Shown: in pieces, positions 6,547 through 35,694 of the stretch
How the letters are laid out: every line of letters begins with the position of its first letter
How positions within the stretch are numbered: position 1 is the first letter of the stretch
From: Desulfuromusa sp.
GTDB taxonomy: Bacteria > Desulfobacterota > Desulfuromonadia > Desulfuromonadales > Geopsychrobacteraceae
Assembly: GCA_016744675.1 (NCBI GenBank)
Contig: JADGDX010000005.1
Coordinates: 1-64,000, forward strand
Direction: 5' to 3'
Length of the DNA stretch: 64,000 bases
Notes under the pieces: generated by a model
What the model saw: the letters and a program-made list of their open reading frames with translations, nothing else
Told to the model about the DNA's origin: nothing
Database searches by the model: none
Translations under genes and position numbers: made by a program

Positions 6547-8856
6547 TTATTGATCATGCCTTAATGCGTAGGCCAATTGCCCCAAGCTGATGCCTCCATC
6601 GTTACAAGGAATTTTAGGTGGAAGGTAGAACGTGTATCCTCTCTTGGGTGCTATGAAAAAAAGACGCTCAACCAAGCAGGAATTTTGAAAAACACCTCCA
6701 CACAGGAGCGCTTCTTTTCGGCCTTCCGCATCCATAATGCAGCAAATGATATTGACGAGCATGTTTACAAAAGCCGTAACACCTCTCACCTGATTATTTT
6801 CCATGGACATGGCCAAAATTGCATCGGAGCAATCGATTAAGCCATTGTCAACGTTGAACTTGTAGCAAATATCTAGGTCTGGATCAAAGTACTTTTCCAT
6901 CATGAGCCCGCTTTCCCCTTCAAAGGAAAGAACCTGATAGAGGCCAAGCAGGGACGCTGCAGCATCAAATAAACGACCGATTGAGCTAGTTTTCGGCGAA
7001 TTGATTTTTTGTCTGTACATTGCCCAGAGTAAGGCTCTGTCCTCTTGTTCCCATGATGTTGTGCAAGGGTTTGAGGTCTGTATGGCGTCTTCCCCGAGCA
7101 GGTCAAACAGTAAGCCGATAGCAACACGTCTAGGTTCCTTGACAGCCTTTTCTCCTCCAAGCAAAGGAAATGGTTTCAGATGGGCGACTCTGCGATAACC
7201 ACGATAGGATGTTGTCAAAAATTCTCCACCCCAAATCGTTCCATCATCACCATATCCAGTGCCATCCCAACATATCGACAAAATTTCTGAATCAATCCCC
7301 ATACCACTGGCAACCATTCCCGAGAGAGCATGAGCATAGTGATGTTGTACACTAATGACCGGAGCTGATTGCTGATGTGCCCAGTGAGAAGTCGTATAGT
7401 TTGGATGTTTGTCACAAACAATAATGTCTGGCGTAAATTTATACAGATTGAAGAAGGTCTCAATTGTCTGCTGGTAGTATGCTTTTGCGCCTAACGTCTG
7501 CAGATCGCCCACATGAGGGCTGAGAATCGCCTGACTATTGAGTCCTAAACCAATCGTATTTTTTTGATCTGCACCGACGGCCAGAACTCTTTTATCTAGA
7601 GATTCTGGCAAATTGAAATTTGCGGGAGCATAACCACGTGCTCGACGGATCATAATTGATACGTCTCCAGCACTATTGATGACACTGTCATCGCACCCAT
7701 TCACGATGTCTCGATTAAATTCTAGGACATACTCAATAACAGAGCCGAGCCTGTTCTTCAGTGTTGTGCTGTCTGTAATAATTGGTTCGTCTGAGATGTT
7801 AGCACTGGTTGCAATGATTGGGCGATCAAGTTGATTGAACAGCAACTGTAAAAGCGGTGTGTAGGGGAGGAATAGACCAATTCGGTCAAGTCCCTTCGTG
7901 ACCTCAGCGCAGCACGCCCCTTTGTCTTGGACAATAACAATAGGCCTTTGATGACTTTGGATCAGATTTCTGGATGAGACATCAAAAACACCATATCTTT
8001 CCGCCATATCGACATCTTTGACCATGACCGCAAAAGGCTTGGTCGGTCGATTTTTTCGGCACCTCAATTCCGTGACTGCTGATGCGTTAAGAGCGTCACA
8101 AATGATATGAAAGCCGCCCACCCCTTGAATCGCAACGACACATCCCTGCTCAATTTTTTTGGCAATCCAAATGATGGGTGATTCGGTTACAATTGCCTCT
8201 CCCTCAACCGTTGACAGCATCATCTTAGGCCCACACTCGGGACAGCTGGTTGCTTCAGCGTGAAAACGTCTGTTTGAAGGGTTCTCATACTCCTGTTGAC
8301 AGCTGTGGCACAGAGGGAAGGGGCTCATCGATGTCGCCGGTCTATCGTAAGGAAGGCTACGGATGATCGTGTAACGCGGACCACAATTTGTACAATTATT
8401 CAGTGGATACTGATAACGACGATTGTTGGGATCTTGGATTTCATGGTCGCAGTCGGAGCAGATCGTGACATCAGGGGGAAGAATGGCTTCGGTCGTTTCA
8501 ACCTGCTCTGATTGAAGGATTGCAAATCCCTCGCTAGAGGTAGTCTCCGTTGCATGAACATCAACTTCATCAATGACAGCAAGCGGAGGAGCGTCGGCTC
8601 TTAATTGCTCAAGGAAATTATCGAGCTTAGACTGCCGACCTGTTGCAGTAATATGTACGCCTACGGGTGTGTTGCAAACCGATCCGGAAATACTATTTTC
8701 TAATGCAATTCGATAGACGAAGGGTCGAAAGCCAACTCCCTGCACAGTCCCTCTGACTGTTATAATACATGAGATAAGGTCTGCTGAGTGTCGAGGAGTT
8801 GATACCACTGAAATCTGCTTCCGAGTCATTATGTGAGGATGATTGTCAGCAACCAT
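6547..8856 (-). CDS. hypF: Carbamoyltransferase HypF
   Basis: Acylphosphatase motif GTVQGVGFRPFVYR, zinc fingers, VQHHYAHA. Confidence 0.96.
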   Translation of the reverse strand: MVADNHPHIMTRKQISVVSTPRHSADLISCIITVRGTVQGVGFRPFVYRIALENSISGSVCNTPVGVHITATGRQSKLDNFLEQLRADAPPLAVIDEVDVHATETTSSEGFAILQSEQVETTEAILPPDVTICSDCDHEIQDPNNRRYQYPLNNCTNCGPRYTIIRSLPYDRPATSMSPFPLCHSCQQEYENPSNRRFHAEATSCPECGPKMMLSTVEGEAIVTESPIIWIAKKIEQGCVVAIQGVGGFHIICDALNASAVTELRCRKNRPTKPFAVMVKDVDMAERYGVFDVSSRNLIQSHQRPIVIVQDKGACCAEVTKGLDRIGLFLPYTPLLQLLFNQLDRPIIATSANISDEPIITDSTTLKNRLGSVIEYVLEFNRDIVNGCDDSVINSAGDVSIMIRRARGYAPANFNLPESLDKRVLAVGADQKNTIGLGLNSQAILSPHVGDLQTLGAKAYYQQTIETFFNLYKFTPDIIVCDKHPNYTTSHWAHQQSAPVISVQHHYAHALSGMVASGMGIDSEILSICWDGTGYGDDGTIWGGEFLTTSYRGYRRVAHLKPFPLLGGEKAVKEPRRVAIGLLFDLLGEDAIQTSNPCTTSWEQEDRALLWAMYRQKINSPKTSSIGRLFDAAASLLGLYQVLSFEGESGLMMEKYFDPDLDICYKFNVDNGLIDCSDAILAMSMENNQVRGVTAFVNMLVNIICCIMDAEGRKEALLCGGVFQNSCLVERLFFIAPKRGYTFYLPPKIPCNDGGISLGQLAYALRHDQ

Positions 8857-10514: not shown

Positions 10515-11456
10515 TTAAGACACGATGTGACGCCAGTCGACGTACTCAATATCATCCGGTGAAGTAAACATTGCTCCATCGACCCTTGCGAAATAGTCCT
10601 TGTGGGAGCATCCCTTGCAGCCAAATCTCGCTTCAACACACCAATTGGCACCATCATTCCACTTACGGCTTGGACAGATTTTCCGATGCGTAATGGTCCC
10701 TTTGCAACCAACTTCAAAGAGGCAACCATCATCTCCGGGATATTTTGCAAATTTGCGGGCTTCGTAAAGCCCTCTGAAAGGACAGTGGTCGTGAATCAAA
10801 TCTGAGTAAAAACGAATTGGAGAGAGGTCGGCATTCCGCTTGGGAACCTGCCCTGTTGCGACAATGTCCAGAACCGTCCCGACAATCTCAGCTGGGTGAA
10901 CTGAACAACCAGGAAGCGTAATGACTTTCTGTTCAATTTTTGCATCATCCCAGTGACAGTATTCTTTTAGAAATTTAGGTATCGGAGTGGCCCCAGTTGT
11001 GTTTCCGGCTGCAGCAGAAATCCCCCCAAAGGTCGCACAGGTTCCCGCACAGATAATCAATCCTGCCGATTCAAAAACTTTTTTACTAAATTCTGCAGCA
11101 GTCTGTCCAAAAGTGAGCGCAGTCATTTTGTTCTTAAGTGGGATAGATCCCTCTGTGACGATGACATGTCCCCCATCCTCAATCACTTGATCCCAGATCG
11201 CGTGATACTCTTTCCCTGATGCAAATGAGATGTTTGGATGGGCTACGACATTGACAATTTCGGTTAGAAACTGCAGTAGATCCCCTGAGTTCAAAAAGCT
11301 TGTACTGCAACCGGTACAGTCTTGGTTTTGTAGCCATGCAACTTTAGGTCTTTGGCTAGCAGGGATATTTAATAGTGCTTCAACCTGCTTGACAGGGACA
11401 GCCATGCCAGCGAGCAAAACACTTGCAACTTTTAAAAATTCTCTACGATCCATCAT
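10515..11456 (-). CDS. [NiFe] hydrogenase small subunit (Tat-exported)
   Basis: DRREFLKVASVLLAG twin-arginine signal, DCTGCSTS, LPGCSVHP, Fe-S cysteines. Confidence 0.95.
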   Translation of the reverse strand: MMDRREFLKVASVLLAGMAVPVKQVEALLNIPASQRPKVAWLQNQDCTGCSTSFLNSGDLLQFLTEIVNVVAHPNISFASGKEYHAIWDQVIEDGGHVIVTEGSIPLKNKMTALTFGQTAAEFSKKVFESAGLIICAGTCATFGGISAAAGNTTGATPIPKFLKEYCHWDDAKIEQKVITLPGCSVHPAEIVGTVLDIVATGQVPKRNADLSPIRFYSDLIHDHCPFRGLYEARKFAKYPGDDGCLFEVGCKGTITHRKICPSRKWNDGANWCVEARFGCKGCSHKDYFARVDGAMFTSPDDIEYVDWRHIVS

Positions 11457-11467
11457 CAAAGTCTCTC

Positions 11468-12901
11468 CTAGTGAATTGAACAGGCCATGCAAGGGTCAAA
11501 ACTGTGCGTTGTTCGAATGACCTCAAGATTGGTCTCTTGACCTCTGAAAGTCGTGGGAAGACCTTTCATTGCCGCTTCAGCTGGGCCACCTAAGGGTGAG
11601 AAATTCCATGTTGAAGGGACAATCAGATTGGCTTCCTGAATCTCTCCATTTTTGATGCGATAATAGTGCATAAGTGCCCCACGAGCAGCGATGCCATGCC
11701 CCCAAGATTCACCAGTGATATCTTGATTTGGATTCCATGCTTTGATGAATGGTTCGTTGATGTTTTTCAGCAGGTGATCGATAACAGATTCGCAGTATTC
11801 TAATAGATTCAAGCACTCGACTCCGCGAGCCAGAAGACGTCCCATATTAGATGACCCAAGGCGCCCCCCAAGGCTGGAAACGATATCAGCAAAGCGCTTA
11901 TCTTTGTTGACGACCAGTCTGGCGAGGGGTCCTACCTCCGCGGTATTCCCGTTGTAACGCGGCGCTTTAACAAAAGTATAGGCTCCAGGCTTGTCGGTAT
12001 CGTACTCACCACTTGAGGTGTAATAGGACTTTTCAGTCATCTCTGTGATACTGTTTTGAGATAAGGTTTGATGCCGGCCACCCATGATGACCCCGGCCTT
12101 AAACATCGGAGTTTCGTCAGGTTGGTAGCAACTGTTAACCGCCAAGAAATTACCACCTGCGTTTCCCAAATCAAAGTGTTCTGGAAAATTTTTAGCAATG
12201 GCCAGAGCATCACCAAGGAGAGTCCCTTCGACAAAACCTCTGACCTGACTGAGCGTTGATGACAGGTTAATCAGTTTTTCTGAGGTAATATCTGTTGTCA
12301 CACCCGCTGGGGTGATGGAGTGAGGATGCGGTGCTTTGCTACCACAAAGAGCGATCGCGTTGTGTGATTTCTGTATATACCCTAACGCATCGAGGTAGTG
12401 AGCAAGCAGAGTCTCGCAGGTTTTTTTATCTTCTATATAACGACCTGTTGGATACTTATGAACGATTCCAAAGGTGTTGTTTTTAACCGCATTTATTACG
12501 GACCGCACCTTGGCATTACTCCCGCTATAGTCAGCAGCTTTCATAACGTCAAACCAGTCTGGGCCGGTCAAAAAATAGGTGTGTAATATATGATCGGCAA
12601 TCATATGGGTGGCAACTGTCAATTCGCGCATCAGTCTGCCATTTGCAGTTGGAATAATTTGTGCTGTTTTTTCCAACGCCTTGTTCGCAGCCTCAGCATG
12701 AACATGCCAACAGACACCACAAACTCTCGAGACCGCAATTGTCGCATCCATCCAACGCCTACCAACGAGGAACCCTTCAAAACCACGTGCCATAGTTCCA
12801 CGAACTTTTGCATCAACAACATGACCATTTTCAACTGTGGTGATGACCTCTTGATGACCTTCAATACGCGTCACAGGGTCAATAACAATCTTCTTTCCCA
12901 T
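11468..12901 (-). CDS. [NiFe] hydrogenase large subunit
   Basis: DPVTRIEGH, SRVCGVCWHVH, C-terminal DPCMACSIH followed directly by TAG. Confidence 0.96.
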   Translation of the reverse strand: MGKKIVIDPVTRIEGHQEVITTVENGHVVDAKVRGTMARGFEGFLVGRRWMDATIAVSRVCGVCWHVHAEAANKALEKTAQIIPTANGRLMRELTVATHMIADHILHTYFLTGPDWFDVMKAADYSGSNAKVRSVINAVKNNTFGIVHKYPTGRYIEDKKTCETLLAHYLDALGYIQKSHNAIALCGSKAPHPHSITPAGVTTDITSEKLINLSSTLSQVRGFVEGTLLGDALAIAKNFPEHFDLGNAGGNFLAVNSCYQPDETPMFKAGVIMGGRHQTLSQNSITEMTEKSYYTSSGEYDTDKPGAYTFVKAPRYNGNTAEVGPLARLVVNKDKRFADIVSSLGGRLGSSNMGRLLARGVECLNLLEYCESVIDHLLKNINEPFIKAWNPNQDITGESWGHGIAARGALMHYYRIKNGEIQEANLIVPSTWNFSPLGGPAEAAMKGLPTTFRGQETNLEVIRTTHSFDPCMACSIH

Positions 12902-13550
12902 CTGCTCTCCTTTACTTAGCCTCTCCATCACACCCAGTTTTCAGAATCGAGGTAAACTCAATCTCAAAACATGGTGAAAAAAGATACATTAAATAACACC
13001 AACCTGTCAACACTCACCATCAATTTATTACTGATACATTACTATTCTTGATCTAACCATCTAAAAAATAGAACAATTTTTTATCGGTGATTGTGATGAG
13101 GATATATTTAACAGGTATTTTCATCGTGCGGGGAACGTGTGGTTGAATAAAAATTGGTATTTGAGTAATTTACATAGCATGGACATGAATACTCTTCTTA
13201 CCAATATCTATCCACTCCCACCTCCAACTCAAGCAAGTGCATTCGTCGTAATTTTACTTTTAATTTACTTTCAAACCGTGGGGCCCATCGTCACTAGAAC
13301 AGAAGAGACATTGGCCTCTCCCCAAATTCATTCACGAATAAAACTGCCCACGCAACAGCTCCGTAAATATTGCATCGATTTTTTAGAAGCCAAGAAGTCA
13401 GGTGTCGCCTTAAAATCCCGCATGCTTCGGGGGTGACTTTTATTCATCATAGGAGCTTTTTTAGCCATGGTATTTGTGAAAAATTCGCCAAAGAAAAGTA
13501 TGACTATATAAAGCCAGAATATAGCCGACCCACCAAAGAACCCATACAGA

Positions 13551-14725: not shown

Positions 14726-15934
14726 CTAGTTGTTCAGCAAAGAAAGCTCAAATGGAAAAGAAACCGACAATTGAAAGTCAGTCGCATCGCGTGTCAGACC
14801 GATAGACAGGTCTATGTCCATAGCGTAAGAATCACTCTTCGCTCTCGATAAACCGATACCAAAAGTTGATGTCGTTTGATCAGAACCATAAATATCCTGG
14901 TTGTTGATTTCCGTTTCCAAACTGTAATTAAAACTGTAATTAAAGCTCAATGACGTATCAAGATTAAGCGATAGAGCCATGCCAAGATTGCCCCCAAAAC
15001 TCTCACCGGGGCGGATAGCACCAATCGACTTATTGGATTTTGGAGTGTAGGTTGCAGACAGCCCACCAAAAACAACAATAGGATCAGCAACAGCGATACT
15101 CGTCATCGACACACCCCATGTTTCAAATCCGGTGCCAAATGATGGTTTATCAGTATCTTCTTGTCGATAAGGATCATCTCCGGAGGTGGATTTCCAATTG
15201 AGGGCAATGACGGTGTCCGGCCAAAAGGTTGACCCGTTAATCAGTTGATAACTTAGCCCTAGCGAGATATCACCCAAGCCATTTGTTTCATGAGCGACAT
15301 GAGTTCCGTCATCTCTAAAAGAGCGCTTTCTCTCATAACCGAATGGAAAAGTAAGGTCGAGTTGAGTCTCCCATGGCAAGCCCAGGCGGAAGGTATGATT
15401 ACTCGTCATGATGTCACGCCTAACCTTCTCCGCAACAATATCCCCTATGACCAGAACCGGATACACGGTAAATCCATCAACAACAATAGAATCATACGAC
15501 GCATGAGCGTAAGAAAAGCTCAAATCATAAGTAAGCCGATACGGCGCAAGAAGCATCCCCCCCTGTCTGCTTAATCTCTGTTCAAAAGCTTCCTCTATCA
15601 GTTGATAATTCTCTTCGCCCTCTTGCTGAAGTCTTAATTTTTCCTCAGCACTGGCCACAGAAAGCGTATTCTCAGAGGTTTCAATTGAAGGTTCTTCTTC
15701 ATGGGCATCAACAGCGACGGCGCGTTCCAACTGCTCAATCCGTCGAATCAGATTTTTCATCGCCAAGTCACGCACCCGATCCGCTTCTTTTAGGCGAATT
15801 ATTTCGAGTTGCCACTCCTGATAAGTTTTAACTGATACCGATTCAGGTAGCTGTCCATCATCCTGAGCCCAACTTGGGCTACAGACAAATGAAATGAGGA
15901 GAACGACGATCAGAACAATTAATCGACAGATCAT
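14726..15934 (-). CDS. Outer-membrane beta-barrel protein with N-terminal coiled coil (FapF-like position and architecture)
   Basis: Signal peptide, predicted coiled coil (EWQLEIIRLKEADRVRDLAMKNLIRRIEQLERAV), alternating beta-strand C-terminal part. Confidence 0.65.
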   Translation of the reverse strand: MICRLIVLIVVLLISFVCSPSWAQDDGQLPESVSVKTYQEWQLEIIRLKEADRVRDLAMKNLIRRIEQLERAVAVDAHEEEPSIETSENTLSVASAEEKLRLQQEGEENYQLIEEAFEQRLSRQGGMLLAPYRLTYDLSFSYAHASYDSIVVDGFTVYPVLVIGDIVAEKVRRDIMTSNHTFRLGLPWETQLDLTFPFGYERKRSFRDDGTHVAHETNGLGDISLGLSYQLINGSTFWPDTVIALNWKSTSGDDPYRQEDTDKPSFGTGFETWGVSMTSIAVADPIVVFGGLSATYTPKSNKSIGAIRPGESFGGNLGMALSLNLDTSLSFNYSFNYSLETEINNQDIYGSDQTTSTFGIGLSRAKSDSYAMDIDLSIGLTRDATDFQLSVSFPFELSLLNN

Positions 15935-15935
15935 A

Positions 15936-16691
15936 TCAAGGCGTCACTGTGGACATTCGTCTGGTAAGGGGTTGACTCGGCATACGATTGAGTATTCGGT
16001 TTCCATAGTTGTAATCCGGGATAGCCATTTCCATCATTTCTGGAGAAAGTGGACTTCTGGTCTCAGCTGAGAGCTGCTTGACCATAAGAGCTTTTTCTTT
16101 CGTCGTAACAGTATAGAAAGCGATCCGACTTTTCCACATCTTTTCAAAACGATCGGCAGATAGAGATATATTTCCAAAGGCAGGATCACCCAGCATCACA
16201 TGTCCACCAACCCGCTTTCGGAAGATAACAAAGTGATCGAAATCACCAATGCGGATAGGCAGAATCGCAGGAAGACCAAAAAGTCCCAAGTCATCAAGTG
16301 TCATATCTCCGTAACCGATCCCCTCCAAACCAACAGCGCGGACAAAACGCTTTAGGTCGTAGAGAGAAAAGCCACCGCGCTCCCTGACAAGAACAGGATC
16401 ACTGTTCTTTAGGATCGTTAAGGTCACAGCCATTTCGGAGAACTGTCGATCGTGGTGATAAATAAGAAGGGTCGATAGAGCTGCAGCGCCACAGCTCATA
16501 TCCCAGCCTTGACGCGTTAAATTCTTCCAGCGCAACTCAGCCATACTCTGAACCGTTGAGCTAAAGCGATAGCCACCGCTCCGCACGCCTATTCGACTTT
16601 CTGAATAGACCGGTGTTGTGCAAATAAAAAATAGGCTGGTCATAAACAGCAGTAAAAACAATCTATGACCTGTCGCCAAAAAAGCTATCAC
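15936..16691 (-). CDS. Secreted C39-family-like cysteine peptidase (FapD-like)
   Basis: Signal peptide; QGWDMSCGAAALSTLL Cys motif, DHFVIF His, LGDPAFGN Asp. Confidence 0.82.
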   Translation of the reverse strand: MIAFLATGHRLFLLLFMTSLFFICTTPVYSESRIGVRSGGYRFSSTVQSMAELRWKNLTRQGWDMSCGAAALSTLLIYHHDRQFSEMAVTLTILKNSDPVLVRERGGFSLYDLKRFVRAVGLEGIGYGDMTLDDLGLFGLPAILPIRIGDFDHFVIFRKRVGGHVMLGDPAFGNISLSADRFEKMWKSRIAFYTVTTKEKALMVKQLSAETRSPLSPEMMEMAIPDYNYGNRILNRMPSQPLTRRMSTVTP

Positions 16692-16699
16692 GATGAGTG

Positions 16700-17101
16700 C
16701 TAATCAGATAATAGGTGATTTAATTGATTGATACTGCCAATGCTTGAATTCACAGTCACATTTAGATTCAAAAGTATCTGTACGGGTGAATTCACCGCAT
16801 TAACATTAATCAGTGAACTCAAGTTAGACTGGGCATTGTCCATAAGTTGCAGACTTCCCTGAGTGTTATAATTAGCAATAGGGACAACGAGGATCTCACC
16901 ATCGACTTCACCATTTTTACCGCTGTAACGAAATGGAATCCGCGTCAATGCTTCCGTACTTGAAGAGCTCGCGTCAACACTACCAGCAGTGACGGCTGTG
17001 AGCTGTTGATCTGTTAACTCTGAGAAAGCCCACACATTTCCAGGGCTGACACAGGTCAAAAGAAATCCAAGAAGAATCACACCAAACTTTATTTTATTCA
17101 T
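16700..17101 (-). CDS. Small secreted protein with double-glycine-like site
   Basis: Signal peptide then FSELTDQQLTAVTAGSVD; C-terminal NAQSNLSSLINVNAVNSPVQ module. Confidence 0.6.
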   Translation of the reverse strand: MNKIKFGVILLGFLLTCVSPGNVWAFSELTDQQLTAVTAGSVDASSSSTEALTRIPFRYSGKNGEVDGEILVVPIANYNTQGSLQLMDNAQSNLSSLINVNAVNSPVQILLNLNVTVNSSIGSINQLNHLLSD

Positions 17102-17117
17102 ATGAACTCCAGACACA

Positions 17118-18680
17118 TCACATCTGCTGATTGAAACTATTCACTTGAGTTGTCGAGGTTCGTACCGATACAGGTGAAGCCCGAAAAGTCGGCATCCGAC
17201 TAATATTTAGTGCATTTGCCGCAACCGAGGAGACAGCATTAACTCCATTAATGACTTGCATATTCTTTTGCGCACTGTCGCTAAGAACGACATTGTTACT
17301 ACTATCGACCGACAGAGAACCATCACTCAGCGCAAGCAATTCGGCCTCGGCACCAGTCATCTGACCACCAGTGATGCTGCTATGGACATAAGAGTCATTG
17401 AATGAACTCTCGGCAACATCAGAAGCATCAATTATTTTTTCAGTATTATTCCCCAGGTTATGAATTTCGTTAATTGAATCATCCACGTACCCAGGAACCA
17501 TCGCAAAGGGGTCTATCTGTATATCTAACAAAGTGAAATCGATATCTAAATCGACCAGATCGACAGACTCATCCAAAAGAGTTGCTTTATCAAGATTGAG
17601 GACTGTCTTAGATAAATCAATAACCAGTTTGGTGTAAGCCGTAAGTTCGAAATCGAGATTTCCATTAACCGTGAAGTGACCGCTGTCACCAAGCGTAAGG
17701 TTACCATCACCGTTAAGAGCAAACCCGGCGCCAAGATTCAATTCATCAAGCTGAAGCCCCATGCCAGGGAGCGTAATATCTATCTGAGTTGGTACATCGC
17801 CTATCGAACCATGATCCCAATCAGGAAAGATAAGTAAATCGGTCGTTCCAAAGTCGAGCATTGGGGGAGTCAAAAGTGCTCCTAAGAGTAAATTGCCATC
17901 ATGGGAGTCCAGACTATTAATTTCTAGCCCTAAGCTCGAAAACGTTGTACCAGAATAACCTGCGAAACCAAGATATGGACCATATTGCTGTGCTTCTATT
18001 ATTTCTATCGGCAAGGCATCTGTAGCGATCATTTCGAGAGAAGTAAAATGATCGCCGACCTTAGTATAACTTTCAATGAAGTCCCTGCGCTGCAGATCAC
18101 TCCAATTCTGTTGATCAATCAGTGAATAAGCAGAATAATCATAACTCTCGCTGCCAAAATGGCTTTCGACCGTCTCTTCATAGCGGTAACCTGCTATCGA
18201 GGTCGATAGGCTTCCCTGCGCACGATGGAGTTGATTCAAATCATTCCCCTGATTAATCTCTATTTCATCGAGCGTATCACTAAGAGACAACGAACTTGCG
18301 TCAAAAATATTTTCAGTTGAGATCGCGTCGCTTGAAAGAAGGTTCTCTAAATTTAGTGTGACGGCACCTTGTTGAGACCTCCCGTGAAGAAGAAGAACCC
18401 GTTTTCGATCATGATTGATTGATCCTTGCAATATGGCAAAGAGCGACGGAGTGTTATCCATGCCATCGATAGTCTGACCGCCCTGCATAGGGTTATATAC
18501 AGAATCATTGGTTTGGGGTTGTTGCTGTTCTTGTGGTAAAGACTGCCCTTCCAAGGGCAGATCAACGCCACCACCGCTAATCCCAGCAAGAGCGGCATCA
18601 GACAGAGATATTGCTGCTCCAGCAATATTTGTATTCAAGAGCAGCAGAACAATTCCTGTTGTGAGAATAAAGCGCTTCAT
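17118..18680 (-). CDS. Large secreted protein, candidate surface/fibre subunit
   Basis: Signal peptide then ISLSDAALAGISGGGVD; C-terminal LSDSAQKNMQVINGVNAVSSVAANALNISR. Confidence 0.6.
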   Translation of the reverse strand: MKRFILTTGIVLLLLNTNIAGAAISLSDAALAGISGGGVDLPLEGQSLPQEQQQPQTNDSVYNPMQGGQTIDGMDNTPSLFAILQGSINHDRKRVLLLHGRSQQGAVTLNLENLLSSDAISTENIFDASSLSLSDTLDEIEINQGNDLNQLHRAQGSLSTSIAGYRYEETVESHFGSESYDYSAYSLIDQQNWSDLQRRDFIESYTKVGDHFTSLEMIATDALPIEIIEAQQYGPYLGFAGYSGTTFSSLGLEINSLDSHDGNLLLGALLTPPMLDFGTTDLLIFPDWDHGSIGDVPTQIDITLPGMGLQLDELNLGAGFALNGDGNLTLGDSGHFTVNGNLDFELTAYTKLVIDLSKTVLNLDKATLLDESVDLVDLDIDFTLLDIQIDPFAMVPGYVDDSINEIHNLGNNTEKIIDASDVAESSFNDSYVHSSITGGQMTGAEAELLALSDGSLSVDSSNNVVLSDSAQKNMQVINGVNAVSSVAANALNISRMPTFRASPVSVRTSTTQVNSFNQQM

Positions 18681-18740
18681 TTTATTCCAACACTTTTCAG
18701 ATCCGCACATGCCAGAGAATAACAATTATCCTGACAATGC

Positions 18741-19997
18741 TTATTGACCATGGTGGACAGCATTAAATTGATTAAGGACTAATTTGGAACCGTATCCATC
18801 AAATCCTGTAGTTCTAGAGATGTTTGTCGTATTTGCCACATTACTGCCAATCGCATTGACAATATCCATACCCTTAATATCTTTTTGGGCAGAATCGGAC
18901 AACTCAAGTTCAACATCTGAACTGAGTTCAAGCGCAGAGTTATCGATGACAATATATTCTGCAGAAGCATTTTCCAACTCAAAGGCTGATCGGTAGATAC
19001 TCGTTTGTATGTCTGAATAAGACGATTGCCCCGACTGGTGGTTTTCGACAATGTTGAGGCTCGAATTATCAGTCTTCGTACTGACAAATTCATTTGAGAC
19101 ACTGGAACTACTGCAAGAGCCCATAACCACTGCGCAACCAGTGCCATCGATATCAATTTCCATCTTCGGCAACTCAAACTGAGAAATCAGAGAAATGCTA
19201 CCAGAACCATTTATGCTGGCAGATGCTTCCGTTTCTCCAAGATTGGTCCCAAACACCGGTTCAATAAGATCCTCATCACCTATCCCGATGCCGGCATCAA
19301 CTGATATACCTCCACCGAGCACCAGAGCGATATCAGCGGAACCGCCATCTATTACGGTCTCAGAGTTACCAGCCACGGCAATACCCTGTCCGAGATTACC
19401 CTCAAAATAGAGGCTATCTCCGACGTTAAACTTGATACCGGTATCAACCTCAGAGGAACTGACGGTCGTGGCGATTCGAGTTTCTTCGAATTGATTGGTT
19501 TGACTATTGACATTAACGATCTTGTTGACGAAATCATCACTTCCAGATTTATTTGAAATGTCGGCTTGATCAGCTTCCGACCTCACATAACCTGACAACG
19601 TAGCAGAACTGAGCTGTTCCTGAGTCACCTGATTAGCCTGATTAAACTCAATTTCCGTTTGAAACTCACTTGCCCCAGAAGCAACAATTGAGTTTCCATC
19701 CCAAACATTGACGGTATTAGCAACTGCGGTTTGAGCACTATTGACAACATTAAGGCCCTGAGTCGCCTGTTGTGCTTCATCGTTCAAATTGAGACTATCT
19801 GCTCGCTTAATCACAGCGACAGAACTGTTTCCAACAATGACTCCGCCACCCTCTGTCCCATTGCCCGCAGTCACCTCGTCCATAGCGCGGTCATTAAGTG
19901 CAACGGGTGCACCTTCAGCAGGGGCAACACAACATAACAATCCGCTCCAAAGCAGAACAATGGCACTCAACACGATTTGTATATTTTTAGTTGCCAT
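18741..19997 (-). CDS. Large secreted protein, candidate surface/fibre subunit (paralogue of 20123-21388)
   Basis: Signal peptide then VALNDRAMDEVTAGNG; two SAQ/VVN/VAN modules; GTGCAVVMGSC. Confidence 0.62.
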   Translation of the reverse strand: MATKNIQIVLSAIVLLWSGLLCCVAPAEGAPVALNDRAMDEVTAGNGTEGGGVIVGNSSVAVIKRADSLNLNDEAQQATQGLNVVNSAQTAVANTVNVWDGNSIVASGASEFQTEIEFNQANQVTQEQLSSATLSGYVRSEADQADISNKSGSDDFVNKIVNVNSQTNQFEETRIATTVSSSEVDTGIKFNVGDSLYFEGNLGQGIAVAGNSETVIDGGSADIALVLGGGISVDAGIGIGDEDLIEPVFGTNLGETEASASINGSGSISLISQFELPKMEIDIDGTGCAVVMGSCSSSSVSNEFVSTKTDNSSLNIVENHQSGQSSYSDIQTSIYRSAFELENASAEYIVIDNSALELSSDVELELSDSAQKDIKGMDIVNAIGSNVANTTNISRTTGFDGYGSKLVLNQFNAVHHGQ

Positions 19998-20122
19998 AAC
20001 CACCCGCATTAATCGGTCGTCGGTAATTTCCCAACGACAAATGACAGAGTGAACAAATCCACCAGATCGTGGCTGCCCGCTTTAAAACAGGTCAGCCACG
20101 ACTGAACCGATCAACTTAAAGC

Positions 20123-21388
20123 TTAACGACTATGGCTAATAACGTTGGTCTGGCTAAGAGCCATTGCCCCACCGGCCAGTTGGCTGGTCCGAGCAACGTT
20201 GACACCATCGGCAACAGCACTACCAGTTGCATTGACAACGTTCATGCCACTAACATTACTCTGAGCACTACCTGACATCGTCAAGTTAAAGGTCGTATTA
20301 ACCGCTAGGCTGGAATCATCAACCACAATATATTCTGCTTGTGCGTCGGTGAGTTCAAAAGGTGAGCGGTAAATTTCGCTTCTATTGTCTACATATTCGC
20401 TATTTCCCGTGCTGCTACTGACTTCAGAATCCATGAGCGATTGGTCTTTTGTCTCAGTGGTCAACAAGTTTGCAGTACCACCTGACTCACAAGAGCCCAT
20501 AGCCACGCCACAACCAGCACCATTAATCTCAATGTCAATTTCGGGAAGAATTAACCGACCGTAAATGGCAAATTCACTGTCATCATTACCAATCGCCATA
20601 CCACCGTAGCTCTCAGCGGGACGACCCTCTTGTGATGCAGTAATTGTATCGGGCGCAGCGATAACAGCTCCACCTACAGCCAGGCCGATCTGCGCCTCAC
20701 CACCATCGATAAAAGTATCAACTTGACCAGCAACCGCTAAACCTTTACCAACGTTCGTATCAACGCTCACTTCAGGACTAGCGGGAAGAGAACTATCTGT
20801 AGTTGCGTTGGTCTGACCACCACCTTTAATAGTGGTATCGACTGAAGCGGTACTGGTATTTTGCGCATCACTGCTCAGCGTCTGCACGTCCAAAACATTA
20901 TTATTCCGATCCAGTTGAATATCGTGAGATTCGGACCCGGAAAGTTCGATCTCGACAGAGGTATTTGCCTCAGGACGAGAGTAGTTTGGCATTGACGCCG
21001 AACGGCGTTGTTCCTGGTTGATGATATTCGACTGTTCAACAGACATCTGTCCATTATCCGCGCCTGCTTCAGAACTAGTAACATCCCAAATATTGACACC
21101 ATTTGCCACAGTCGATTCAGAGCTATTTACCAAGTTAAGCCCCTTGGCACCCATCTGGACTTCATCACTCAGATCCACGCCGCCAGTCTGATTAATAGTT
21201 GCCTCAGAGCTATTGCCGATTATGGCCCCACCACTCCCGCCAACTTCACTTGATCCTGCAGTCACCTGGTCAAGGGTACGATCCCCCAAAGCCATCGGTG
21301 CAGCCTGAACCATCGATGCCCCCAACAACAGACAGCTCAAGACCATAAGTGATTTACCAACTTGCGGCACAAACCTCTTAATCATCAT
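20123..21388 (-). CDS. Large secreted protein, candidate surface/fibre subunit (paralogue of 18741-19997)
   Basis: RBS AGGAGG, signal peptide then MALGDRTLDQVTAGSS; two SAQ/VVN/VAN modules; GAGCGVAMGSC. Confidence 0.62.
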   Translation of the reverse strand: MMIKRFVPQVGKSLMVLSCLLLGASMVQAAPMALGDRTLDQVTAGSSEVGGSGGAIIGNSSEATINQTGGVDLSDEVQMGAKGLNLVNSSESTVANGVNIWDVTSSEAGADNGQMSVEQSNIINQEQRRSASMPNYSRPEANTSVEIELSGSESHDIQLDRNNNVLDVQTLSSDAQNTSTASVDTTIKGGGQTNATTDSSLPASPEVSVDTNVGKGLAVAGQVDTFIDGGEAQIGLAVGGAVIAAPDTITASQEGRPAESYGGMAIGNDDSEFAIYGRLILPEIDIEINGAGCGVAMGSCESGGTANLLTTETKDQSLMDSEVSSSTGNSEYVDNRSEIYRSPFELTDAQAEYIVVDDSSLAVNTTFNLTMSGSAQSNVSGMNVVNATGSAVADGVNVARTSQLAGGAMALSQTNVISHSR

Positions 21389-21888: not shown

Positions 21889-24800
21889 TTATCTATTTGC
21901 TGAGATATCAGCAATAAGTTCAGTGATTTCGTCGACGGAATAATCTTCCCCCTGAAGAACAGTTGCAAAACGAGTCAACACCTGTCGGGCCTGAATCGTC
22001 GAATTCTGGCCCTGAAGCTGAAAAAGACGCGCATAAAGCCTGTCATCAAGAGGATCATTTTTCAACGCCTTCTCGACGACCAGAATCGCCTGCGACTGAT
22101 GACCGGCATTAACCAGCAACTCACTCCAAGAACAAGCCAATATCGTCATGGTTCGAGTCAATTCACGTCGAAAAGAACTCAGTTGACTTTCACCGCTGGT
22201 CCCAGGAGAAAACCCTCCCGACCATAAAGATTCAGCGGTAGAGAAAGAATTTCCAGCCTGCCAGAATTCCTGCAATCGCAGGTGCCGCTGTCCGCGATCA
22301 ACTGAGCATAAAAACTCACACGCGTCGACCTTACAGTGAGCGAGCCAGAGCATTCCCTTTTCACGCCTTAAATAAGATTGTTCACTGCCCCTGGGCAAAA
22401 CCTTAGTAAAGACTTTCCGCAGTCGCGAGACCAAAGTATCAAACTTGGTCTGAGCACCTTCGGGAGGACTATCAGGCCAGAAATGAAGTTGAATCATCTC
22501 CTGAGGCAACTTAAATCGAGGAGCAGAAATAAGCAGACAAAGTAATTCTCGCTGAGTCGGGGTAAGATCCTCGGCCTGAAGTAAATCTTCTCCTCGATAC
22601 TGAACTTTAAAATCACCAAGCGTCTTCATAGAAAGCAACGGAATTGCTTGTCCGTCATCCGAAAAAGCCATTCCAAGACGCTCGTCAGCCAACATCTGTA
22701 CGTACTCATTTTCTATGTCATGTCTTGCAGCAAAACTGAATATTTTTATCATCGCTTCTGGTGTCCATGCCCAGAAATGATGATAACTGTTTCGACGCAT
22801 CAACTCTAACCCGGCTTCGATATCTTGCTTAGCCTGCTGAACTGCATTAAGTTCAAAATAAACCGAAGCACGGTGCAGAGTGGCACACGCTTCGATATAT
22901 TCGGTCGGCATTCGTCGGGCATCAAAGATAGCTTCGCTCAACAGTTCAATAGCCTCTTCAGAACGGCCACAATGAGACAGAACTAGCCCAACGGCTATTT
23001 TATTTTGGGCAACAAAATACACCCCCCCTGATAACTCACGCAATTTCCTCGATTGTTCCACAGTCGAAAGTGCGGCATCTGCCTGATGCAATAAGGCCTG
23101 AACAAGCGCCTTAAATTGTAGAATTTGGCTACTCAGGTGGGGACTTAAAGGAGGTTGGCGGTGCAAGGCCCTATCGGCAATATGCATTGCCTTACAAAAA
23201 TCACCTTGGTTAATAGCAATATCCATTTCCCAGACATAACAAAATGGACCGGCTATCGTTTGGGAGAAGAGCGTATCACCAACAGCTTCGACAAGCTGGC
23301 CTTTCTGCTTGAAGTAATTTTTAAAATCGCCCTCGTGAAAAAGAAAGTTAAATAGCATCATCCGGATCGATAAGCAGTTGAATGTCCCAATCTCAGGCCG
23401 ATGCAAAAAAGAAGAGGCCGACTCAAGACATGTGTAGGCTAAAGCGGTATGACCAGCAAATATCTGGTTATAGCCTATGATCATATGAATAGCCGCTTCG
23501 AAATTGACCAATCCCTCCTTCCTTGACAGATTTAGAGCCAACGAAGCAAATTTATTTGACTCATCGACATCAGCGAGAAAGATGCAATAGCCCATAGCCA
23601 GACAGCGCGCAACGAGAATTGTCATTGCACTATCAAGATCCTCACCACATTGAAAAAACAGGGACTCTGCCCTTTTCAGCAATTCCTCGCCCTCTTTATA
23701 ATGGCCAGTCGTTGTTATATGGATGGAGATGATATGCGCCAAACTGAGCAATTCACCGACTTCGTCCTGATGACTAGAAAAAACAGTCAAAGCCTTACTT
23801 AGCAATGGCAACGCTCGATCTGGAGCAGAGTCCATATGGGCTAACGCTGAATAGAAAGAAGACCAGCCATAAGAGTTGAAATGGTCCTGCGGAACCCGAT
23901 TCAAGATTCTGGTCAAAGTGACCGCTTGATTCGTGACCAAAAAAGACATGCCATATTCTTTCAGTGCACTTTCAACGGCAGGATAGTCTCCGGACTGCAA
24001 CAGATAGGCTAATGCTTGAATTGGCTTTTTGAGCTCCATGTAAAAATCACCAGCCTGATGATAAACTTTTCGAATCTCTTCAAAATCTAATTCTGCTCCA
24101 GCCTTTTCCTGAAGGAATTCGCGAAACAGGTGATGAAAACCAAAAGTCTCCTTTTCAGAATCAAGATGACGAATGAAAAGATTGCGGCGATCCAGGTCTG
24201 ATAAATCAGACCCAAAATTAGACTCTCCGGTAAGCTTTATTGCTAATTCAACTGGGATTTCATCTAGCAAAGATAAAACCATGAGTGGGCGGTGTAAACG
24301 CAGTTCCAAAGTTGTCAGAATCTCGCGGCTGAAATACTGCAAGAGCGTCTGACGGTCAGAAAAGCCAGGACAAACCAGAGGCAACTGATGCTCAGAGGCG
24401 ACCTGTTGCTCCATTTGTCGACCGAGCAATAAAACCCCCATGGTCCAACCATCAGTTGCCCTTGCAATAGACTGGATTGATTCATGGGATATGTCACGCT
24501 GTAGAACGTGCTGGAAAAAGGCGGTGATTTCAGCTTCGCTTAATGCCAAGTCCTCATCAACAAGAGACAAGAGAGACCGCTTATGAGAGCTATTTTGACG
24601 GCTTGGAAGCGCCAATGTCTCACGTGAAGATAATACAAAGTGTAAACTTGGAGGGGCTGTTTCTAGCAGATAGTTCACAATAAATAGCCCGGATTCATGC
24701 TCCATAAGGTAGTGCAAATCATCGAAAACAATGTAAAGATTGCCCTTAAGTCGGCTATCTAAGTCATTTAATAATAGATTAATCTGCTTCGGCAAATCCA

Positions 24801-25149
24801 GCTGACAAAAACCTACTCCTTCTAGAAACTGAGCAGTTTCATTTGAGGGGAAATCAGGAAGTTGCTTATTTATGCAGAGGAGGAGTGCTTGGAGAAAAAA
24901 AGCAGGATCAGCATCTTCCTGCCCAACCTGATACCAAACGGAAGATATCCCAGGACGATCTAGAAATTGCTTAATAAGAGTCGTTTTCCCCTGACCAGCC
25001 CGAGCTTCAATAATTATTGAGGGGGAGGAACCATCCTGAGCCAACGAATCTACAAGACTTTTCCGATATAAAAATTGAGGAGTATCAACCTGGGGAGGAG
25101 AGAACTTATCTGCCCGTATTTGTGCTCTAAATTCTGCAGACCGAAACAT
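21889..25149 (-). CDS. MalT/LuxR-like ATPase regulator with C-terminal winged-helix and BTAD (SARP-like) domain
   Basis: EARAGQGKTTLIKQF P-loop, IVFDDLHYL Walker B, TPR-like middle, C-terminal LGDFKVQYRGEDLLQAEDLTPTQRELLCLL..LVSRLRKVF. Confidence 0.8.
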   Translation of the reverse strand: MFRSAEFRAQIRADKFSPPQVDTPQFLYRKSLVDSLAQDGSSPSIIIEARAGQGKTTLIKQFLDRPGISSVWYQVGQEDADPAFFLQALLLCINKQLPDFPSNETAQFLEGVGFCQLDLPKQINLLLNDLDSRLKGNLYIVFDDLHYLMEHESGLFIVNYLLETAPPSLHFVLSSRETLALPSRQNSSHKRSLLSLVDEDLALSEAEITAFFQHVLQRDISHESIQSIARATDGWTMGVLLLGRQMEQQVASEHQLPLVCPGFSDRQTLLQYFSREILTTLELRLHRPLMVLSLLDEIPVELAIKLTGESNFGSDLSDLDRRNLFIRHLDSEKETFGFHHLFREFLQEKAGAELDFEEIRKVYHQAGDFYMELKKPIQALAYLLQSGDYPAVESALKEYGMSFLVTNQAVTLTRILNRVPQDHFNSYGWSSFYSALAHMDSAPDRALPLLSKALTVFSSHQDEVGELLSLAHIISIHITTTGHYKEGEELLKRAESLFFQCGEDLDSAMTILVARCLAMGYCIFLADVDESNKFASLALNLSRKEGLVNFEAAIHMIIGYNQIFAGHTALAYTCLESASSFLHRPEIGTFNCLSIRMMLFNFLFHEGDFKNYFKQKGQLVEAVGDTLFSQTIAGPFCYVWEMDIAINQGDFCKAMHIADRALHRQPPLSPHLSSQILQFKALVQALLHQADAALSTVEQSRKLRELSGGVYFVAQNKIAVGLVLSHCGRSEEAIELLSEAIFDARRMPTEYIEACATLHRASVYFELNAVQQAKQDIEAGLELMRRNSYHHFWAWTPEAMIKIFSFAARHDIENEYVQMLADERLGMAFSDDGQAIPLLSMKTLGDFKVQYRGEDLLQAEDLTPTQRELLCLLISAPRFKLPQEMIQLHFWPDSPPEGAQTKFDTLVSRLRKVFTKVLPRGSEQSYLRREKGMLWLAHCKVDACEFLCSVDRGQRHLRLQEFWQAGNSFSTAESLWSGGFSPGTSGESQLSSFRRELTRTMTILACSWSELLVNAGHQSQAILVVEKALKNDPLDDRLYARLFQLQGQNSTIQARQVLTRFATVLQGEDYSVDEITELIADISANR

Positions 25150-33936: not shown

Positions 33937-35193
33937 TTAACGCTCGGTTGAAAACGGATTTAGGAATTGGCGTTGCCACATCAGGCCTTTATCAACCGGG
34001 CTGAGCTCAACTTCCTCACATACACGATCCCAATTATCGCGGATAGCAGCCTCTGTCTTGTCAAATATTTCACATGCTTCACTGCGAGAAAGCAAAAAAA
34101 TATGTGCGGCCTCAAGACAAGTTTTGAGCTGGCTGAATTTATTGTCACCGACAATCAACATGGCTTGCACGGCTTCGTTACCTGAGCGGTTTTGTGGACA
34201 GATATCATAGGCCGGGGTCAATGTCAGCTCGCGCCCATCCCAAAACGCAGCATGGTTCCGAGCGTGATCATCTGTATTACTACACAGAACATTGAACACC
34301 AAACGGCCATATAGCTCATGAAGAGTCTGTTTTGGTTTGGCAAACCGAGCACGAATAATCTGCGCAAAATCCTCATAACTGGCATAGCGTGCAGTCATAT
34401 CACTTAATCCGAATAAAGTTAGCGCAGAGACCATGCTTTTACGTTCCCACCCTGAAGCAACTTGAACGCGATCAAAACGCTCAATTAACAAAACATCCTT
34501 GCCAGCGGCTTTTACCATTTGAGCCGGTGCGACAGCCAACCCCGCTATACTAGCTAGCCTCATAGCAACATACTCAGCCTTAACTACACTGTAAGTATCC
34601 GTGCTCGATGAAAATTTCGCGATATATTTTATTCCATGATCATTGATTAAGGCTTTGGGACGCGCCCCACCAATAGAGCTTCCATGAAATAACGCCTGAT
34701 CAAGCTCTGAGGTCAAAGGTACACCCTTTTCAACTCGATCTGCGGATTCAAGTAATTCTTTCAAACTAGCGTTTTTTGCTGACCTGGGAATGTATTCCGT
34801 AGGAGAACGTTGAAAATCTAGGGCACCAATGCGATCCGACCCGGATTCAAGCAGATAAGTTAGTTCATTTAAATCAGCGGTATCCGCACCAAATCCTCTT
34901 CTCCCCAACTGCTTATTAATAATAACGCGCCGCCCCCATGCATCGGGTGCAGCATCCCGAATACAGCTTGGAATATCCAAATCACTCAAAAGAGGAAGCA
35001 CACCAGCTTGTAGCGGCAGTTCCGGCACATAGATCGGAATGGCATCCGAGCGCTCCAGATAACTTTTGCCATAGTTAAAATAAACAAGCTCGCCATCTGC
35101 TTCTAACTTTCCAGCAACCACTGGCTCAGTTTCTCCCGATAGCCAGATCCAAACATAGGCTTCTTTGTTGTTTTGCTTAGAAGTCATCATCAA
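33937..35193 (-). CDS. hipA: HipA-like serine/threonine kinase toxin
   Basis: SSIGGARPKALI, NTDDHARNHAAFWDGRELTLTPAYDICP. Confidence 0.93.
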   Translation of the reverse strand: MMMTSKQNNKEAYVWIWLSGETEPVVAGKLEADGELVYFNYGKSYLERSDAIPIYVPELPLQAGVLPLLSDLDIPSCIRDAAPDAWGRRVIINKQLGRRGFGADTADLNELTYLLESGSDRIGALDFQRSPTEYIPRSAKNASLKELLESADRVEKGVPLTSELDQALFHGSSIGGARPKALINDHGIKYIAKFSSSTDTYSVVKAEYVAMRLASIAGLAVAPAQMVKAAGKDVLLIERFDRVQVASGWERKSMVSALTLFGLSDMTARYASYEDFAQIIRARFAKPKQTLHELYGRLVFNVLCSNTDDHARNHAAFWDGRELTLTPAYDICPQNRSGNEAVQAMLIVGDNKFSQLKTCLEAAHIFLLSRSEACEIFDKTEAAIRDNWDRVCEEVELSPVDKGLMWQRQFLNPFSTER

Positions 35194-35503
35194 CGACCCT
35201 CGTTTTTTCTCTGATCCTCTTTGGGAGAAGGGCTATTTGGCTCTGGGTTAAATCAATGGCGGCTGAAAGCCTCTGACTGTCCGGCTCAAACAAAGGCACG
35301 CCTACCAAAGCAGCAACCTCAAACACCAAGCCAATGGCTGGAGTCATCTCACCAGATTCTATTTTTCGAAGTGTTCTTCGTGAAATTCCAGCACGTTCCG
35401 CAAGATTTGCTTCAGACCATTTGCGCATCTTGCGACCAAGCCTAATTTGCTGGCCTAGCAAAAATGCTGCTTCTTTTGCATATTTTGAATAGATTCTTTT
35501 CAT
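35177..35503 (-). CDS. hipB: HipB-like XRE-family antitoxin
   Basis: HTH: WSEANLAERAGISRRTLRKIESGEMTP; overlaps hipA. Confidence 0.88.
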   Translation of the reverse strand: MKRIYSKYAKEAAFLLGQQIRLGRKMRKWSEANLAERAGISRRTLRKIESGEMTPAIGLVFEVAALVGVPLFEPDSQRLSAAIDLTQSQIALLPKRIREKTRVVDDDF

Positions 35504-35694
35504 CGCCACACCAAAATTAAAATGAACATTATAGTAAGCACAAGACCACTTAATGACTACCATAGTAGCCTTTTACAAAAAAGTCAACAGCAATACTACC
35601 GGGGTTAATAACGCGTAAACTGTCCAACTTTGTAATAGAACCTCTGTCCTGTTCGTAATTCTCCGCTAAGAAGGAGATTGAAAAAAAACAAAAA

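Follow-up and report, generated by a model that had tools for sequence, protein, structure and literature searches.

An operon related to the Fap and Fil systems in Desulfuromusa encodes repeat-bearing secreted proteins with C39-type leaders

A compact operon in a 64,000-nucleotide stretch of DNA from Desulfuromusa sp. (the window) probably encodes a Fap-related system for the secretion and assembly of surface fibres, in which the subunits would be tagged by a leader for a periplasmic C39 peptidase and exported through a FapF-type outer-membrane barrel. We describe here the relationships of its proteins, a leader carried by all four putative subunits, and the link between that leader and the peptidase. 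As far as could be tested, what is new is a family of subunits sharing a repeat that we call AQ, the conserved operon in which they are found, and the leader that ties the peptidase to its substrates.

Organisation of the operon

The operon occupies positions 14726-21388 of the minus strand, on which all features described in this and the next three sections lie. It comprises six co-directional ORFs of 438, 422, 535, 138, 251 and 402 aa, counted from the promoter side, each with a clear Sec-type signal peptide. After correction of the starts the intergenic gaps are about 113, 60, 16, 8 and 1 bp. The first gene encodes S1a, a secreted protein and probable fibre subunit that most likely starts at the ATG at 21388, preceded by AGGAGG, giving 421 aa (20123-21388, with the ORF extending to 21439). 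It is followed by its paralogue S1b (18741-20009; 422 aa, 35% identity), by S2, also secreted, of about 520 aa from the ATG at 18680 (17118-18680; ORF to 18725), and by S3, a secreted protein of about 133 aa that is the most widely conserved of the subunits (16700-17101; ORF to 17116). The last two genes encode a Sec-exported peptidase of 251 aa (15936-16691) and a barrel protein of 402 aa (14726-15934).

A strong RNA hairpin is predicted between S1a and S1b (20067-20101; -33.8 kcal/mol, z -3.7). In locus L212, where the operon recurs, a hairpin of unrelated sequence occupies the same position (-46.7 kcal/mol, z -5.3). The element may serve in transcript processing or attenuation, and would be consistent with the first subunit being expressed more strongly.

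The peptidase and the pore

The peptidase matches the Pfam C39 family at 1.1e-12 and the NCBIfam entries FilB and FapD at 1.2e-32 and 4.5e-27, respectively, with bit scores well short of the cut-offs of the latter two (113 against 475 for FilB and 94.8 against 330 for FapD). Of the proteins of known structure, the best match is 6mpz, a double-glycine protease domain (9.7e-18). The catalytic residues Q61, C67, H153 and D169 are intact and invariant in the alignment, and the protein has both the C39 fold and the Gln, Cys, His and Asp of Peptidase C39. In a peptidase tree three groups are seen: Fap together with Geobacter-like sequences, Fil, and the window system together with loci that encode small proteins with leaders ending in TAG. 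The window peptidase thus sits in a supported clade separate from the peptidases of Fap and Fil.

The barrel protein matches NCBIfam FapF at 1.4e-32 over nearly its full length and FilC at 1.9e-23, again far under the equivalog cut-offs (bit scores of 113 against 700 and 83 against 630). A profile made from an alignment of window-type operon barrels only, without any Fap sequence, retrieves the FapF crystal structures at 7.6e-47. In the AlphaFold model (pLDDT 75) a signal helix is followed by an N-terminal coiled-coil helix of 43 residues (35-77), a second, plug or linker, helix (92-123) and a β-barrel (133-398); FapF accounts for all 18 of the best structural matches, with TM scores of 0.76-0.85 by target length. 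The COG4313 outer-membrane channels (4rl8) have the same type of barrel (TM 0.71-0.73) but take up hydrophobic molecules, and no C39 partner has been reported for them.

A preliminary description of this DNA, made by reading it without database searches, had proposed six co-directional genes, among them a signal-peptide-bearing C39-like peptidase and an outer-membrane barrel preceded by a coiled coil. All six ORFs are confirmed, on the minus strand. The Pfam match, the conserved catalytic residues and the PDB relatives place the peptidase in C39, and profile search and structural model, the latter with TM scores of 0.80-0.85 to FapF, alike identify the barrel as a FapF-type barrel with coiled coil, not an unrelated porin.

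The secreted subunits and their repeat

None of the four subunits matches a Pfam or NCBIfam family. S1a and S1b each share segments with S2 (E about 1e-9), and all four contain a repeat of about 32 residues, the AQ repeat, with the consensus SVTLSGSAQQNLRALNNVNAAGSAVANGLNVA. There are two copies in S1a (21083-21178 and 20189-20284), two in S1b (19698-19793 and 18813-18908), one at the C-terminus of S2 (17196-17291) and one in S3 (16760-16852); relatives of S2 reveal a second copy. The earlier statement that the four secreted proteins are related is therefore borne out by the identity of S1a and S1b, the segments held in common with S2 and the single repeat family, although the repeats themselves, like the leader described below, had escaped the preliminary description.

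The mature proteins contain much Asn/Gln and Ser/Thr and little Lys/Arg, S1 and S3 also being poor in aromatic residues, and they have long variable middles. The AlphaFold model of S1b has a pLDDT of only 40 and no structural match. Comparison of repeat profiles yields no cross matches in either direction between the window subunits and Fap repeats, in agreement with the earlier remark that obvious Pseudomonas FapC repeats are lacking. Homology of the AQ repeat to the FapB/C repeats, which are imperfect copies of GNxGVNxAAGxxNQQxN, was considered but is not claimed: the P of 0.0056 given by hhalign in one comparison was equalled by 8 of 200 column-permuted nulls, an empirical p of 0.04, and the resemblance is superficial.

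We propose the AQ-repeat subunits, which occur in several phyla, as candidates for a new family of surface-fibre proteins in bacteria. The alternative is that they are matrix proteins or adhesins in soluble or loosely attached form, exported by the same peptidase and pore and forming no amyloid fibres. Such a role would suit the variable middles and the lack of any match to an amyloid family, as well as the quite different small TAG-leader proteins that sister loci export. However, the subunits are repeat-bearing, polar and low in charge, with duplicated paralogues, and their characterised relatives Fap (PMC3684753) and Fil (PMC11784438) have both been reported as surface-fibre systems. We consider matrix proteins or adhesins conceivable but unlikely, and retain the reading as fibre subunits.

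Four further loci (L213, L214, L110 and L090), Aquificota and Omnitrophota contigs among them, encode long AQ-repeat proteins, in some with three or four copies, adjacent to a C39 peptidase. Their leaders end in AQ or AG, and they are possible deep branches of the AQ-repeat system.

A C39 leader behind the Sec signal

Each of the four subunits has a canonical C39 leader, L-x3-[EQ]-[LM]-x2-[VI]-x-A/G-G, immediately following its Sec signal: LGDRTLDQVTAG in S1a (-12 to -1; 21254-21289), LNDRAMDEVTAG in S1b (19863-19898), LSDAALAGISGG in S2 (18570-18605) and LTDQQLTAVTAG in S3 (16982-17017). Every leader has hydrophobic residues at -12, -7 and -4 and small residues at -2 and -1, as a leader substrate should. 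In S1 and S3 alignments spanning phyla the Ala at -2 is invariant amid generally low conservation. The geometry equals that of the solved LahT leader complex (Val-4, Leu-7, Leu-12) and matches the ComA consensus Leu(-12)-x3-Glu(-8)-Leu(-7) (PMC6363468). The window system resembles the C39 double-glycine peptidases of AMS/PCAT transporters (LahT, ComA, PCAT1) in its peptidase fold and catalytic residues, and in a leader geometry of -12/-7/-4/-2/-1. It differs in that its peptidase is stand-alone, Sec-exported and periplasmic, with no ABC transporter, and in that the predicted substrates are large Sec-exported proteins.

The association of leader with peptidase was assessed across 79 peptidase loci. 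The leader is present in 55 of 169 nearby secreted ORFs and in 2 of 93 distant ones, counts that rest on simple signal-peptide calling in loci not independent of one another, and that include the window and some class-level loci in which the pattern was first noticed. Among non-redundant secreted proteins it is found in 23 of 76 near the peptidase as against 2 of 74 in the remainder of those loci; shuffling gave a mean of 1.7. When spacings were varied, x4-x2-x1 alone stood out (29/76 near, 7/74 far), those not sharing its register giving 0-7 near. Under the strict pattern 32 of the 79 loci are without a leader, partly through crude calling of ORFs and signal peptides.

At -2, 17 of 18 Fap/Fil loci have Gly, and 25 of 26 loci in the clade containing the window system have Ala (Fisher p 5e-10, uncorrected for kinship). 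This residue follows the peptidase clade even among unrelated substrate proteins, which is the pattern expected of an enzyme-substrate pair. In the literature searched, which takes in only a minority of subscription journals, no paper on this leader was found.

At five loci (L106, L082, L113, L076 and L074) between three and six short secreted proteins, of about 95-180 aa and all starting LxxxQMDxVTAG, are encoded in tandem directly upstream of a periplasmic C39 peptidase. The hosts are Alphaproteobacteria, Acetobacteraceae, Methylobacter and others, and among the array proteins scanned there is no clear family match.

What FapD may recognise

The same leader bears on a question about Fap itself. 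The active-site Cys of FapD is needed for secretion of FapC, the C38A mutation abolishing it, but the target of FapD was left unclear, and Fap proteins were reported to lack canonical C39 sequences; FapE was the sole Fap protein seen to be processed at the N-terminus (Rouse et al. 2017; PMC5557850). According to a 2025 review, FapD is 'thought to' process both FapE and FapF (PMC12822426). In 13 of 13 canonical Pseudomonas fap operons we find a leader in FapE (for example LKDQELAQLRGR), one FapE identity being confirmed at 1.6e-92. FapA has a similar motif (LSDSDFAGVTSG) in the 13 operons, whereas FapB and FapC have no convincing leader, so that no claim is made for all Fap proteins. The FapA motif, invariant in loci L159 and L196-L207, has the form [LV]xDx[DE][FIY]Ax[VI][TS]SG and lies about 70 residues from the N-terminus.

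The leader suggests what FapD recognises, namely the leader on FapE first and perhaps that on FapA, and would explain the N-terminal processing of FapE. Cleavage at a leader does not account for the motif in FapA, of which published mass spectrometry saw peptides along the whole length and no processing, and the presence of a leader thus need not mean that it is cut. This could be taken to favour a second alternative, that the leader is a docking tag only and that the C39 protein acts as a chaperone, passing unfolded subunits to the pore uncut; non-catalytic C39-like domains do exist in type I systems (PMC5557850). We think this improbable, given the invariant catalytic Gln, Cys, His and Asp and the effect of C38A in FapD, and prefer a leader that the peptidase cleaves.

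More broadly, we lean towards regarding Fap, Fil, the AQ-repeat system and many small TAG-leader proteins as one widespread secretion class, in which a periplasmic C39 leader behind the Sec signal would license export through a FapF-type pore and would itself be the target of FapD. The question of that target, open since 2017, then becomes a simple cleavage test, and the leader a sequence tag for finding the substrates of many unannotated peptidase-pore pairs.

Relationship to Fap and Fil

Judged by its sequences, the window operon is a variant of the Fap/Fil type rather than a Fap operon. As in Pseudomonas Fap (fapABCDEF), a periplasmic C39 peptidase accompanies a coiled-coil, trimer-type barrel, the subunits are encoded upstream in one operon and are repeat-containing and polar, and the leader geometry is that of FapE and FapA. 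Unlike Fap, the operon is without Fap repeats, FapA and FapE, has leaders on all subunits rather than on two proteins, and has leaders ending in TAG where those of Fap have RGR/RGG. The peptidase gene, of a clade other than that of the Fap peptidases, is directly followed by that of the pore: the two are 1 bp apart, leaving no room for a FapE gene between them, and there is no match to NCBIfam FapE. That this is nonetheless a true Fap operon, its FapA, FapB, FapC and FapE diverged past recognition, is very improbable, since the homologous peptidase and pore and the upstream position of the subunits, which it would explain, are outweighed by the separate, supported peptidase clade, the missing FapE gene, the lack of any Fap repeat match and the real Fap-repeat protein of a relative from the same order as the host.

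The last of these is found at 10766-11680 (minus strand) of locus L036, beside a FapD-like peptidase. True Fap operons thus coexist in the lineage of the host, and the lack of Fap repeats cannot be put down to the host having diverged.

The Fil system of Acinetobacter and Pseudomonas (FilA-FilF) has a homologous C39 peptidase, FilB, and barrel, FilC (1.2e-32 and 1.9e-23), and its FilA/DUF6160 proteins have a leader with TGQ. The window operon differs from it in having no FilA and no FadL-like downstream gene, unrelated subunits and a peptidase of a separate clade. With a true FilA/DUF6160 member (in L078) as score reference, no Pfam or NCBIfam match to this subunit is seen in the four window proteins. 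Two Pseudomonas loci, L078 (7338-7802) and L096 of P. aeruginosa PA7 (7319-7810), were considered as Fap operons and rejected. They are Fil-type operons, containing a FilA/DUF6160 protein with the leader MDDxALSxVTGQ, a C39 peptidase, a FapF-like barrel and a FadL-like protein. The N-terminal part of DUF6160 is apparently a signal peptide followed by a C39 leader.

The preliminary description had spoken of a distant or independent version of the Fap logic. The FapF-like barrel and the C39 peptidase sustain 'distant', but, because these proteins are homologous to FapF/FilC and FapD/FilB, the operon represents a sister lineage, and an independent origin is not supported. By analogy with Fap, it would be a sister secretion and assembly system with different subunits, probably building surface fibres. 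Its standing as an undescribed system holds in part. Paired fapD and fapF homologues outside Fap have already been noted in five further phyla (PMC6173800), so that the existence of such peptidase-pore loci is known in outline, but neither the subunits nor the leader signal was found described in the literature searched.

Proposed mechanism

All six proteins would enter the periplasm by Sec. There each of the four subunits would display, immediately after its signal peptide, a second leader of the C39 type. The periplasmic peptidase may bind this leader through the hydrophobic residues at -12, -7 and -4 and cut behind its final residue (...TA-G). The subunits, processed and unfolded, could then cross the outer membrane by the coiled-coil FapF-type barrel and be assembled outside by way of their AQ repeats; S1a and S1b would be the likely bulk subunits, and S2 and S3 minor components (anchor or nucleator). 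For cleavage, export through the barrel and the formation of fibres or amyloid, we infer this course from Fap.

Distribution

The whole operon recurs in L212, from another family of the same phylum, with all six genes in identical order and protein identities of 77% (peptidase), 64% (pore), 61% (S1a), 61% (S3), 55% (S1b) and 43% (S2). Such a recurrence in an independent genome means that the six-gene arrangement is not due to chance. The order S1-S2-S3-C39-pore is also seen in Ectothiorhodospira haloalkaliphila (L063), Marinobacter iranensis (L060) and two MAGs (L059, L062), a reduced S1-S3-C39-pore form in Edaphobacter and other Acidobacteriales (L065-L068), and the end of the operon on a Desulfobulbaceae contig (L061).

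A phylum-wide search with S3, made without reference to the peptidase, matched 4 of 396 genomes, the window's own and three others. In all four S3 adjoins a C39 peptidase and a FapF-like barrel, which answers the question, raised with the first reading of the locus, of whether the secreted family occurs apart from them. Within the window's own family S1 is found in only one of 44 genomes, and the peptidase is absent from all 13 other members of the genus searched. This patchy distribution, together with the mixing of Gammaproteobacteria and Desulfobulbaceae peptidases within one supported clade of the tree (100/99), suggests that the operon has spread horizontally. Base composition gives no sign of recent acquisition, the GC content of the operon (45.3%) being ordinary for the window. 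No empty site could be shown for comparison: in other genomes of the genus, the closest matches of the MscS-like and MalT-like neighbours of the operon share only 42% and 26% identity with them and are not clear orthologues.

L212 has no MalT/SARP-like regulator gene adjoining the operon. In the window, a 1086-aa MalT/SARP-like ATPase regulator is encoded just upstream of the operon and in the same direction (21889-25149, minus strand). Elsewhere on the minus strand are what we take, by eye, to be a gene for a HipA-like kinase beside a helix-turn-helix (HipB-like) gene (33937-35563) and, at 11468-12931, presumably the gene for a NiFe hydrogenase large subunit.
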